From Smithella sp. (lineage in GTDB: Bacteria; Desulfobacterota; Syntrophia; Syntrophales; Smithellaceae), in assembly GCA_017993615.1 (NCBI GenBank), contig JAGOMJ010000021.1, positions 2,929 to 38,586 of the forward strand: a stretch of DNA of 35,658 nt, written 5' to 3'. How positions within the stretch are numbered: the stretch's first letter is position 1; the number at the start of each line of letters is the position of its first letter. Below the pieces are notes generated by a model. It did not search any database and was not told where the DNA came from. It saw only the letters and a program-made list of their open reading frames with translations. A program made the position numbers and the translations under genes. Shown piece by piece: positions 1,977 to 35,658 of this stretch.

Positions 1977-1988
1977 GGTGTTTGAAAA

Positions 1989-2657
1989 ATGGTTTTAGCC
2001 TCCGGGAAAACAAATTCAAAAACACGCACCGCGATCATTGAGGCGGCAGGGAAAATCTTTGCCGAAGAAGGTTACCTCAAGGCGACCGTCCGGGATATTT
2101 GCAGCAGCGCCGGGGCCAATCTGGCGGCGGTCAATTATTATTTCGGGGACAAGAAGGGATTGTATCTGTCCGTGTTGAAGTATTATCAGGAGATGGCTTT
2201 TCAGGCGTATCCGCCCGATCTGGGTATCCGGGCCTCTCAGAAACCGGAGGAAAAGCTTAAAATTTATATCCGGATGTTTCTGAAACGGATTATGGATGAC
2301 GGACGTCCCGTCTGGTTCGGCAGGCTCCTGGCGCGGGAATTCAGCGAACCGACCTGCGCGCTGGATGTTCTGGTCAACGAGACCATCCGTCCTTCTTTCC
2401 AACTCCTTACGGAAATCGTCGCCGACGTGCTGGGCAAAACGCCCCGGGAAAAAATGGTGCGGCTGTGTTCAATGAGTATTGTCGGTCAATGTCTTTATTT
2501 CCGCCATTCGCAGCCGATCATGACCAGAATTTATCCGGAAGCAACCTTCGGGGCGGAACAGATCGATGAAATAACCGAACACATCGCCTCCTTTTCCATA
2601 GGAGGCCTGAGGAAAGCGCAACAATCAGCCAGGGTGAAAAAATGCAAAAAAAGATAA
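1989..2657 (+). CDS. TetR family regulator, CecR (YbiH)-like
   Basis: A 222-residue repressor. Residues about 10-57 form a TetR DNA-binding domain (TRTAIIEAAGKIFAEEGY, then the helix-turn-helix ending in NLAAVNYYFGDKKGLY). The rest resembles the DUF1956 ligand-binding domain of E. coli CecR/YbiH, including LLAREFSEP and a QCLYFRHSQP-like segment. CecR-type genes commonly precede efflux-pump genes, and this one leads a tolC-macA-macB set. Its 3' end overlaps the next gene by 16 bp, which supports co-transcription. It probably represses its own operon until a toxic ligand binds; the ligand is unknown. Confidence 0.9.
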   Translation: MVLASGKTNSKTRTAIIEAAGKIFAEEGYLKATVRDICSSAGANLAAVNYYFGDKKGLYLSVLKYYQEMAFQAYPPDLGIRASQKPEEKLKIYIRMFLKRIMDDGRPVWFGRLLAREFSEPTCALDVLVNETIRPSFQLLTEIVADVLGKTPREKMVRLCSMSIVGQCLYFRHSQPIMTRIYPEATFGAEQIDEITEHIASFSIGGLRKAQQSARVKKCKKR

Positions 2658-3916
2658 TGCTCCTTTTTTTAATCGTCTTGATTCCGTTTGCCGCCGCTTC
2701 GGAGCCGGCAGGCGGAACGGCCTCGTATGATCTTGATCAGTGCATTGCCGTTGCTCTGGACAAGCATCCCAGCCTCAAGGCGTCCGCCGGCGACATCCGG
2801 GCCAGGGAAAGCCGGGTCGGGCAGGCCAGGTCCAAATACTATCCGTGGCTGGATGTGTCCGCCGGCTATCAGAAGATCGGTCCGACCACGCCGCCCGGCG
2901 ATTCCATTGATTCGTACGATCAGTATTCGACGGGGTTCAATCTGGGCGTGACCCTTTTCGATTTCGGCAAGACGTCAGCAAATGTCGCCATTCAGGATTT
3001 AAACGTAAACGCGTCGCGCGCCGATTATGACGATGTCAAAGCGCAAATCATTCTGAATGTGAAAAAAGCTTATTACACGCTTTTGCAGAACCAGCGCAAT
3101 CGGGATGTGGCCGTCGATACGATGCAGCAGTTCCAGCAGCATCTGGATCAGGCAAACGCTTTTTTCCGCGTTGGCACCAAACCGAAATTCGATGTGACCA
3201 AAGCGGAAGTCGATTTAGGCAATGCGCGGCTGAATGTTTTGAAGGCGGAAAATGCCGTTCGTGCTGCACGGATCACGTTGAAGGACGTCATGGGCATTCC
3301 GGAAAACGCCGATTTTACAATTGTCGATAACCTGTCTTTTCAGAAACAGGCATGGATCCTGGACGATATTTTGAACAAGGCGTATGCCGTCCGTCCTGAT
3401 CTTCTTTCGATTATAGCCAGACGCGAGGCAGCCGAGCGGTCGATCGATCTGGCGAGAAAAGATTATCTTCCGACCCTGTCGGGGAGCGCCGGATACGGCT
3501 TTTCCGGCCGTGATTTTCCGCTGGGCCGCGGCTGGAACGCGGGCGCGTCTCTCAGTTTTCCGCTTTTTTCGGGGTTTTCGACCAACTATCAGATTGACGA
3601 AGCCGAAGCCAATCTGGCAATACTGACAGCCAACGAAGAGACCGTCCGCCAGGCCATTCACTTGGATGTTCAGCAGGCCTATCTGAATGTTCAGGATACC
3701 GCTGAACAAATTGCCATGGCTGAAATGACGGTCGTTCAGGCTCAGGAAAATTACGATCTGGCGTCGGGGCGTTATCGGAGCGGCGTCGGCAGTCCCATTG
3801 AAGTTGCCGACGCGACGATTATGCTCAATAACGCGAGAGCCGGTTTAAATACGGCGCTTTGTAATTACAGGATCGCACAGGCCGTTCTGGAAAAATCCAT
3901 AGGAGCAAAACCATGA
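2642..3916 (+). CDS. TolC-like outer membrane efflux protein
   Basis: A 424-residue outer-membrane channel of the OEP/TolC family. A signal peptide covers about the first 19 residues (MQKKIMLLFLIVLIPFAAAS). Two OEP repeats follow. Each has long helices rich in Ala, Gln, Asn and Asp and a strand segment (STGFNLGVTLFDFGKT in the first, NAGASLSFPLFSGFST in the second), the expected duplicated hairpin-plus-barrel layout. It would give the MacAB-like pump an exit through the outer membrane. The start lies inside the end of tetR with AGGGTG upstream. The stop overlaps the adaptor gene by ATGA. Confidence 0.92.
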   Translation: MQKKIMLLFLIVLIPFAAASEPAGGTASYDLDQCIAVALDKHPSLKASAGDIRARESRVGQARSKYYPWLDVSAGYQKIGPTTPPGDSIDSYDQYSTGFNLGVTLFDFGKTSANVAIQDLNVNASRADYDDVKAQIILNVKKAYYTLLQNQRNRDVAVDTMQQFQQHLDQANAFFRVGTKPKFDVTKAEVDLGNARLNVLKAENAVRAARITLKDVMGIPENADFTIVDNLSFQKQAWILDDILNKAYAVRPDLLSIIARREAAERSIDLARKDYLPTLSGSAGYGFSGRDFPLGRGWNAGASLSFPLFSGFSTNYQIDEAEANLAILTANEETVRQAIHLDVQQAYLNVQDTAEQIAMAEMTVVQAQENYDLASGRYRSGVGSPIEVADATIMLNNARAGLNTALCNYRIAQAVLEKSIGAKP

Positions 3917-7195: not shown

Positions 7196-7699
7196 ATGCG
7201 AAAAATATTTGCTATTTTCATTTCTCTGTTCTTTATCGCTTCTTTAACTTTAGCCGTGACGGGTTGCAGTAAAATTGAAGAAGACTCTGCGAACTTGCAG
7301 AAAGCCGCTGCTGAATTGAAAGCGCAGGCGGAGGCGAAAAAGGCTGAAGCCGAAATGAAAGCACAAGCTGATGCGCAGCAGGCGGAGGCGGATTTAAAAG
7401 CCCAGGCCGAGGCGATGAAAGCCGAAGCGGAATTAAAAGCCAAAGAGATGGCGAAAAAGGCTACAGTGAAAGTAAAGCAGGTTAAAAAAGACGTCGAAAA
7501 AGTGGCCAACAAGGTGGCCAACAAAGTTGCCACGGATGTCAAAAGCGCCGGCCAAGAAGTGAAGGAAGCTGCAAAAGAGACGGTGGTTGACGTCAAGAGC
7601 GCCGGTACGGAAGCGAAGGAAGCCGTAAAAGAGAAAGCGGTTGAAGTCAAATCCGCCGTAAACGATGCGGCAACCGATGTCAAAAATGCCGGCCAGTAA
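7196..7699 (+). CDS. Repeat-rich helical lipoprotein (LEA/TolA-like)
   Basis: A predicted lipoprotein of about 167 residues. It has a signal peptide (MRKIFAIFISLFFIASLTLA) and a lipobox ending VTGC at residues 19-22. The mature part is Ala/Lys/Glu/Gln helix: three 13-residue units beginning ELKAQAEA, EMKAQADA and DLKAQAEA, then two 18-residue units beginning DVKSAGQE and DVKSAGTE, and a degenerate end. Such LEA-like or TolA-like helices can be spacers, envelope tethers or stress protectants; no specific function is recognisable. The frame extends 14 codons further upstream, but a near-perfect ribosome site AAAGGAGGT ten bases before 7196 decides the start (TTG at 7193 is possible). Confidence 0.82.
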   Translation: MRKIFAIFISLFFIASLTLAVTGCSKIEEDSANLQKAAAELKAQAEAKKAEAEMKAQADAQQAEADLKAQAEAMKAEAELKAKEMAKKATVKVKQVKKDVEKVANKVANKVATDVKSAGQEVKEAAKETVVDVKSAGTEAKEAVKEKAVEVKSAVNDAATDVKNAGQ

Positions 7700-32961: not shown

Positions 32962-33486
32962 ATGAAATCGAAATCAGATGTTTTGAAATATTTGGAGCTG
33001 GCAGAAAGACAAGCCCGGGACAAGAAAAAGAAATCAAACATGAAAACATACGCCTATAAATATCTGGAACTGGCTGAAAAACACGCGGAGAAGATTGCCG
33101 CAAGATGGGTAAAGGACGTTAGAAACAACACCCGAACGCAGACTTATAAAAAGCTGAATGAAAAGCAATTAGTCGATCAGTGTACAGAGTTTTATCAGCA
33201 ATTCAGTAAGATGTTCATTTATGAAAAAATTACGGATGACGTGACGAAGTATTTTCAGAAATACGCACTGGAATGTTATGCTCTTGACATTCCCGCGAAA
33301 GAAGCTATTTACGCGCTGATATTGATGCGACGGAATATCTGGCTATACGCGGAATTTCAAATGATCTTCAACTCAGCTATTGCCAAGCAGGAATCCCTGG
33401 ATACCCTCAACCGAACTATCCTGCTGTTTGATTACGCGGTGTATGAGGTCACCAGGGAATACCTGGAATTGATGAAAACTACTTAG
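32962..33486 (+). CDS. RsbRD_N-like helical protein at the end of the ATPase operon
   Basis: A 174-residue soluble, all-helical protein. The core from about residue 38 (AEKHAEKIAARWVKDVRNNTRTQTYKKLNEKQLVDQCTEFYQQF) resembles the RsbRD N-terminal sensory domain found at the front of stress regulators and kinases, here with no output domain. YLELAE occurs twice near the N-terminus (about 10-15 and 34-39), a short duplication. It is not a known ATPase subunit, but it follows subunit D by 38 bp on the same strand with AAGGAG, so it is probably co-transcribed. A regulatory or adaptor role is inference. Confidence 0.65.
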   Translation: MKSKSDVLKYLELAERQARDKKKKSNMKTYAYKYLELAEKHAEKIAARWVKDVRNNTRTQTYKKLNEKQLVDQCTEFYQQFSKMFIYEKITDDVTKYFQKYALECYALDIPAKEAIYALILMRRNIWLYAEFQMIFNSAIAKQESLDTLNRTILLFDYAVYEVTREYLELMKTT

Positions 33487-33742
33487 CGGTCGAAATTCAT
33501 TATTGCTGACGGTGAATCATGCCATCGATTAGGCACGGGTGCATGAGGTGCTGGTTTATGCCTGGTGACTTCCGCAACCCTAGAAACGTTTTTTTGGCAG
33601 TGTCTCGAATCGTCATTGCTTTGCCATTAGAGAATCGGTGGCTAAGATTATGACAATATGTTCTGCTAGGAGAAGGCATTCTTACCGCAGTTTATCTGGC
33701 AGTAAAAAATTAATGATAAAATCGAACTAAGGCGCATAAGCT

Positions 33743-33773
33743 CAGTCGGGTCTTTTGGACTCGACTGTTTTTT
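33743..33773 (+). terminator. Terminator of the ATPase operon (first R palindrome)
   Basis: CAGTCGGGTC-TTTTG-GACTCGACTG (33743-33767, one G-T pair) followed by six T's is a good factor-independent terminator on the plus strand. It is the first hairpin of the 64-bp R element, so two further copies (34033-34063 and 34323-34353) exist and act antisense to hrpA. The 253 bp between 33487 and 33739 hold no recognised gene or structure. Confidence 0.65.
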
Positions 33774-33823
33774 AACGACAGCCAAGTCAAAAAGACTTGG
33801 CTGAACAAGGATTAAATAAATCA

Positions 33824-34114
33824 CTAATATTTTTCAATGTCTTCCATCAACTGATTCAATTTCTTCGGCGAGACGGGGTAGGGGGTTTTAAGCTCCTGAG
33901 CGAACAGAGAGACCTTGTATTCTTCTATCATCCAGAAGAATTCTTCAACCATTGTTTTCTTTTCATCCGGACAATCTATGGTAATGTTTTCTTTTAAAAG
34001 AATCATTTCTTTAAATCCGGTTCCTTTAGGCTCAGTCGGGTCTTTTGGACTCGACTGTTTTTTAACGACAGCCAAGTCAAAAAGACTTGGCTGAACAAGG
34101 ATTAAATAAATCAC
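33824..34114 (-). pseudogene. Duplicated C-terminal fragment of hrpA
   Basis: This 96-codon open frame repeats the last 89 codons of hrpA, from QPSLFDLAVV to the stop, at the same DNA sequence. It is preceded by seven new codons (GTG ATT TAT ...). Its GTG shares the last base of the hrpA stop codon (TAGTG at 34114), so re-initiation by terminating ribosomes is conceivable. There is no ribosome site of its own and no helicase domain, so it is best treated as a duplication remnant. Confidence 0.8.
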
Positions 34115-35658
34115 TAATATTTTTCAATGTCTTCCATCAACTGATTCAATTTCTTCGGCGAGACGGGGTAGGGGGTTTTAAGCTCCTGAGCGAACAGAGA
34201 GACCTTGTATTCTTCTATCATCCAGAAGAATTCTTCAACCATTGTTTTCTTTTCATCCGGACAATCTATGGTAATGTTTTCTTTTAAAAGAATCATTTCT
34301 TTAAATCCGGTTCCTTTAGGCTCAGTCGGGTCTTTTGGACTCGACTGTTTTTTAACGACAGCCAAGTCAAAAAGACTTGGCTGGACACGGCCATTTACCA
34401 TCTGCTGCAGTTTTTGCGAATAAATTAAAACGTCCTGCATTTTCCTTTGCGCCGCGGAAAGATTTAAATTTCCCCGTTCGGCTCGCAGAGCAAGCGCCTT
34501 GCAGTAGCGCGGCAGTTCCTTCATCCGTTCAAAGGTATAAAGCTCGGGGAAATCGACGGGCACAAGACGGGAGATCTCTGTTTGGATGTCTTTTATAAAA
34601 TTCAAAACAGGATTGTTGTTTCTATTTTTCGTCATGAGTTTGCCGATAACGGTACAGGTATCGGCACAGGCTTTCAATACCGGTTCGATCGCTATCAATA
34701 CCTGCTGGCCATAAGGCAGAATTTGGGAATTCAGACAACCGGCGTGCGCGATAAATTCCTCCTGTCTTCGCCACGGCTTGTAAAATAAATCTTTCCTGAC
34801 CCGGTTAATGATGGATTGTTCCAGTTGTTTGGGAGGGCCGATGCCGGCAGCGCTGGTCTTCATTGCGCCAGTCAAAGCGACATTCTTTTTAAGTTGTTTC
34901 ATCTTGTCGGCGAAGTGAATGTCGTAGAGCGCCGCAATACCGTGCAAATGATGGAAGGCGCTTTGTTTTTCGTCGGCGAAAAGCCGCAGATCAATGGAAT
35001 CATCGCTAATCGTCAGCGCCGGATAGGCGTAACCGATCAAGCCGTGAGTTCCCCGAAGGGGAATCTGCCGGGGCAAGTCCCCGAAATCCCAGCCAGTGAT
35101 TCCCTCTTTTTCCCACTCACCTCTGATTTTATCCATGGCCGATGTACTGACCGTATCGGTCAGTTCTTTTTGCAGCAGATGAATGTCCCGGCTTTCTTTA
35201 ATTTCGTTTCCTTTTTCATCAATGACGCTGTAGCGGACATTCAGATAATCCGGCAGTTTTTCCGTTGCCCAATCATCCTTAGGAACCTTTATCTTGTATT
35301 TGTCGAGAAGCAACTGGCTGAGCGCCTGAGGCAAAGGCTTGTCCAAATTCGATTTATCTTCCACCAAAAGCTCAACAATTTTAGCGGGCGGCGGCAATTT
35401 GAGGCGAATGGATTTAGGAAGCGACTTCAATAAGTGAACGGCCTTTTCCTTTAATAACGAAGGCAGATGGCGATCGATGTTTGCTGTCGCGGCTTTGGAA
35501 ATAAAACCCAGAGGCACTTTAACGGTGACGCCGTCATCATTTTTTCCCGGTTCAAAATTATAGCGGCAGTTGAAAGCGGCATCGCCGATTTTTATCCGAT
35601 CGGGATATTGCGATATTTCTTCAGCATCCGGTTCACGGGCAATCAGGTCCTCTTCCCG
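34114..35658 (-). CDS. hrpA: ATP-dependent helicase HrpA, C-terminal part (truncated by window edge)
   Basis: The C-terminal 514 residues of an HrpA-type DEAH helicase. The frame is open to the window end, so helicase motifs lie outside. Recognised parts are FEPGKNDDGVTVKVPL (about residues 32-47, at the start of the DUF3418 region), GWDFGDLPRQIPL, KPWRRQEEF and the closing WMIEEYKVSLFAQELKTPYPVSPKKL, which is nearly invariant in HrpA. HrpA acts on RNA, including stalled ribosomes in E. coli. A segment just before the C-terminal block (from QPSLFDLAVV to about DPTEP) is encoded by the palindromic R element and is not usual for the family. The stop is within the duplicated unit. Confidence 0.92.
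   Translation of the reverse strand, partial: REEDLIAREPDAEEISQYPDRIKIGDAAFNCRYNFEPGKNDDGVTVKVPLGFISKAATANIDRHLPSLLKEKAVHLLKSLPKSIRLKLPPPAKIVELLVEDKSNLDKPLPQALSQLLLDKYKIKVPKDDWATEKLPDYLNVRYSVIDEKGNEIKESRDIHLLQKELTDTVSTSAMDKIRGEWEKEGITGWDFGDLPRQIPLRGTHGLIGYAYPALTISDDSIDLRLFADEKQSAFHHLHGIAALYDIHFADKMKQLKKNVALTGAMKTSAAGIGPPKQLEQSIINRVRKDLFYKPWRRQEEFIAHAGCLNSQILPYGQQVLIAIEPVLKACADTCTVIGKLMTKNRNNNPVLNFIKDIQTEISRLVPVDFPELYTFERMKELPRYCKALALRAERGNLNLSAAQRKMQDVLIYSQKLQQMVNGRVQPSLFDLAVVKKQSSPKDPTEPKGTGFKEMILLKENITIDCPDEKKTMVEEFFWMIEEYKVSLFAQELKTPYPVSPKKLNQLMEDIEKY

Follow-up and report, generated by a model that had tools for sequence, protein, structure and literature searches.

Results

The window, by which we mean the whole analysed stretch of 35,658 nucleotides, belongs to one of the 105 contigs of a 2.52-Mb draft genome of Smithella sp. 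(G000). Two genes converge near its end: one on the plus strand for an RsbRD_N-like protein of 174 aa (32962..33486), and hrpA on the minus strand (34114..35658), of which the DUF3418 part (514 aa) is visible, the 5′ end lying beyond the contig end. A tandem array of the form R-X-R-X-R, with a period of 290 bp (TRF score 1289; 2.2 copies), occupies positions 33740-34383. The 64-bp sequence R occurs at 33740-33803 (R1), 34030-34093 (R2) and 34320-34383 (R3), and the 226-bp sequence X lies between these copies at 33804..34029 (X1) and 34094..34319 (X2). All three R copies are identical (64/64), as are both X copies (226/226). No exact direct repeat in the window exceeds the 354 bp (290 + 64) contained in the array; with the array removed, the maximum drops to 17 bp, and shuffled sequence gives 13-16 bp. 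Two palindromes make up R, CAGTCGGGTC..GGACTCGACTG and CAGCCAAGTC..GACTTGGCTG, and its folding has a z of -5.6. The borders of the array coincide with R ends. The exact repetition of the 290-bp unit, the clean end of the third copy after its 64-bp part and the palindromic nature of that part had all been described in the first-pass annotation and hold; it had overlooked that R is a dispersed REPIN-like element and that the copy in hrpA is translated. TRF also reported two imperfect tandem repeats in coding sequence, of 39 and 54 bp and rich in Lys/Ala/Glu, at 7299-7441 and 7538-7658 of the window.

The C-terminal half of HrpA is a minus-strand ORF that runs from the contig end to 34114. Its match to DUF3418 and its orthologues in congeners and, among named records, in two Smithella MAGs agree with the original naming of the host gene. 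The frame stays open through R3 (VQPSLFDLAVVKKQSSPKDPTEP; minus strand), which encodes residues 426-447 (QPSLFDLAVVKKQSSPKDPTE...), into X2 (minus strand), which encodes residues 447-514, including the most conserved segment of the protein (MxEEYKVSxFAQELKT), and then has the stop codon (34114-34116), followed by some 20 bp. X2 is the functional hrpA 3′ end. R2, X1 and R1 are all located past the stop; X1, an exact duplicate of the hrpA tail on the minus strand, has no plausible start and is probably not translated. R3 is an in-frame insertion into a conserved gene with no loss of frame, as Rickettsia palindromic elements are. In the structure predicted by AlphaFold, the mean pLDDT is 85.6 and falls below 50 at residues 425-448, so that the R-coded residues coincide with the lowest-confidence stretch, between two helices. 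According to this model, the position of the insertion in a low-confidence linker would explain why it is tolerated. Our literature search returned no report of palindromes inserted in HrpA.

A genome search for the 64-bp R, as proposed in the first-pass annotation, showed that the element is dispersed. By sequence search, R-family members occupy about nine further places in G000 as full or half units, nearly all of them intergenic, and the further full doublets are 72-91% identical to the array R. Copies were found in nine of 16 congeners and in none of the 23 genomes searched from other genera, i.e., R is confined to one genus among 40 genomes. Full copies (alignment A2) consist of two REP-like palindromes in inverted orientation around a variable spacer, with common outer ends (AAGYTC on the left, GGCTGAAC on the right). 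Pairing is kept in 93% of pair cells, and covariation is weak yet above that of shuffles. The alignment and folding of this inverted doublet, together with its dispersed, mostly extragenic, multi-copy distribution, are those of a REPIN, at a number of places per genome (about a dozen) that is low for a REPIN population. Nearly every copy has GTTC/GAAC as its outer tag, and not the GTAG or CGTC found at the stem end in the GTAG/CGTC REP superfamily. Searches of plasmid records for R, of Rfam and for tRNAs returned no match.

RAYT tyrosine transposases are believed to mobilise REPINs. The genus does have RAYT genes, and several of these have their own REPs, distinct from R, at their flanks. A scan of 30 RAYT loci and further Y1 hits of the genus, in drafts that are incomplete, found none with R units beside it; neither G000 nor G011, an R-bearing congener, has a RAYT gene flanked by R, and no Y1_Tnp is detectable in G011. 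The sole Y1 transposase detected in G000 is an IS200-type TnpA (L021 1393-1903, contig C8) that runs off the contig end, carries a terminal hairpin (CCACAGGCGTGAGCCTGTGG) and has no R beside it. R resembles a REPIN in anatomy, but the association with a RAYT gene, a defining trait of the class, was looked for and not found; we describe it as a non-autonomous, REPIN-like palindromic element and do not count it among RAYT-linked REPINs.

The hrpA ends of congeners were compared with that of G000. G011, the congener most similar to G000 (82.1% at rpoB, with the others below), carries a single R at the same linker of hrpA and none downstream. The insertions of G000 and G011 are likely orthologous, judging by their position and a shared flank (GAnCCTAA), and the two elements are 78% alike, no closer than other family members. 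No congener has an array of the R-X-R-X-R type. The regions downstream of hrpA are not visibly alike among congeners; since these are at most about 82% identical at rpoB, no empty R1 site is found among them.

Other palindromic families occupy the same linker in congeners, which was less expected. A repeat that we call S (..PSLDGRGRGRVDND..) is read in frame in HrpA of G015, G003, G012 and G001, and beside R in G011; a second one, T (..HKDCH..CRELAMTNENCD..), is read in frame in G012 and G001, and a T-like repeat is found in the linker of G018, from another genus. The S and T families are dispersed in the genus. HrpA of genomes without such inserts has a short linker or none. The inserts, seen at loci L023, L025, L032, L033, L037 and L031, belong to unrelated families, in Smithella genomes and one neighbouring genus. 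A candidate fourth family in the linker of G014 was set aside, as its multi-copy status could not be demonstrated.

Inside the array, the sequences adjoining each R differ in an ordered way. R1 (plus strand), the intergenic copy between the convergent genes, has ends that equal the family consensus on both sides (AAGCTC...CTGAAC); therefore, it appears to be an independent insertion. Neither end of R3 is consensus (TAGGCTC...CTGGAC), these ends being decayed or constrained by coding. R2 (minus strand), the middle copy, has mixed flanks, the left one as in R3 and the right one as in R1, a join that necessarily results when R3 and R1 exchange unequally. R is thus present at both borders and at a join with mixed flanks, as expected of a tandem duplication by exchange between direct repeats. 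The core of all three copies carries a private G (GTCGGGTC) and a private spacer that are not seen in 13 other copies, and their mutual identity is 100% vs. at most 91% to any other copy.

Further REP-associated duplications were noticed during these searches. G011 has an 84-bp stretch, a related REP with its flank, in two copies that are identical and 875 bp apart (L165, C331:4000-9000, about 1982-3021; L069 1495-2540), adjoining a dinB-like gene and a lexA/umuD-like gene, the end of the latter being present as an 84%-identical duplicate; this locus is an older REP-bounded duplication of a gene tail. G005 has a 203-bp tandem pair (97%) with a REP-like palindrome, adjoining a RAYT gene (C210; L080 1167-1572), another REP-linked tandem duplication in the genus. 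In G000 itself, a diverged tandem duplication is located inside an R-family element that separates the substrate-binding-protein gene of an ABC transporter from a permease gene of the transporter (C51:10397-10538; L012 1498-1649).

Discussion

The history best supported by the flanks of R1, R2 and R3 and by the single R of G011 is the one put forward in the first-pass annotation: one R within hrpA, a second just downstream and an unequal exchange between them, to which we add the homogenisation of the R cores. We give this extended history a probability of about 0.7. The original version was incomplete, since exchange alone does not make R1 equal to R3 and, therefore, local copying or gene conversion is needed too; the shared private core of the three copies fits such homogenisation. 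One R would have been inserted in frame in the disordered linker of HrpA, probably long ago, because a congener has R at the same place; the state of G011 fits a stage at which only this inner copy was present. A second R would then have been inserted just past hrpA in the same direction. The two direct copies, 226 bp apart, may have recombined unequally between sister chromosomes, or replication slippage helped by their hairpins may have had the same outcome, giving R-X-R-X-R with homogenised cores. The extra X would be a silent duplicate. A reverse exchange would remove either one X, with no effect, or both, in which case HrpA would lose its C-terminus.

A single X with R at either side is the firm part of this anatomy, and the presence of two X copies is unproven in a draft of 105 contigs. 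It is possible, although we consider it unlikely, that the true genome has R-X-R and that the assembler walked the R/X loop twice. The fragmented draft and 354 bp of perfect identity would agree with such an artefact, and, in a short-k graph, 226 bp of unique sequence between copies of a 64-bp repeat would be expected to form a simple loop. No contig-end overlap from which the assembler k could be deduced was found among ten contigs. On the other hand, the window contains no N and, outside the array, no exact repeat above 17 bp; even with an artefact, R3 and R1 have different outer flanks, so that X would still have a genuine R on both sides.

Two further readings concern the origin and the retention of the extra unit. 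Instead of homologous exchange, a segment already composed of R-X or X-R could have transposed to the side of hrpA, driven by a transposase in the manner of REPINs or IS200-like elements. The REPIN-like anatomy of R and the coincidence of the array borders with R ends are what transposition would give, yet the only Y1 transposase of G000 has no R beside it, G011 has R with no detectable Y1_Tnp, and X, being the tail of hrpA, already sits where it belongs, so that transport is unnecessary; we find this very improbable. The native origin of X also led us to drop the idea of an integron with attC sites, X not being a cassette. Only slightly less improbable, in our judgement, is that the array is kept for a purpose, either with hairpins 3′ of hrpA acting as an mRNA stabiliser or terminator, or with a spare tail that guards the HrpA C-terminus from deletion by R x R recombination. 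R1 is located between convergent genes, a usual place of REPs (PMC3733652), and each R, R1 included, has a hairpin plus T6 on the plus strand that resembles an intrinsic terminator. However, no T run follows the stem on the hrpA strand, the count of terminator-like structures (3 vs. 1.7 in shuffles, sd 1.3) is within reach of the shuffles, and congeners do without such an array.

Returning to unequal exchange between two R copies, its ingredients are known from other bacteria, and we regard the locus as a new, clean example of them. In Pseudomonas fluorescens SBW25, REPINs are inverted REP doublets with peaks at 71 and 110 bp, and tandem REPIN arrays that include flanks have been described (PMC3116915). 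The R array is likewise a tandem of inverted REP doublets with flanks; in contrast to those clusters, the repeated flank here is the tail of a coding gene, one element is translated, copies are far fewer and the search for a cognate RAYT was negative. Palindromic units in frame in conserved genes are known as well, namely intragenic GTAG/CGTC REPs and Rickettsia palindromic elements, with dimers that code for 20-30 residues, and REP targets include RNA helicases and recB (PMC3733652). R is read in frame in a conserved gene as these are, but its outer ends are GTTC/GAAC, and several unrelated families share one HrpA linker. A parallel to this last point is known in Xanthomonas recB, where different REPs are present at about the same site (PMC3733652). 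Finally, for enteric bacteria, tandem duplications with REP sequences at their joins have been reported (Shyamala et al. 1990, according to the passages that cite it in PMC11708052 and PMC7661048). As those citing passages present them, direct REP copies serve there, as here, as sites of unequal exchange; the duplications are large and chromosomal in that case, and in ours the duplicated unit measures 290 bp and probably spares gene function.

The expansion leaves HrpA unchanged, since the promoter-proximal R-X unit would always supply the reading frame and the stop codon. Deletion of everything between R3 and R1, on the other hand, would leave HrpA with 24 foreign residues in place of all that follows residue 446 or so, the invariant MxEEYKVSxFAQELKT block included. 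A bolder proposal, which we offer as speculation and think unlikely, joins these points: both in Smithella and in a neighbouring genus, the HrpA linker would be a recurrent landing site for unrelated palindromic families (R, S and T), each read in frame, and the tail with its R copies at either side would form a recombination module in which R x R deletion swaps the invariant C-terminal segment for a short foreign tail, the spare X buffering the loss.

At this locus, REP-mediated duplication is seen on a very small scale: the join, the two parental flanks and what the event means for the gene can all be read at one site. The HrpA comparison also shows that a single linker in a protein can repeatedly accept different palindromic repeats with the frame preserved, and Smithella HrpA is therefore a natural test case for selfish palindromes becoming protein sequence.
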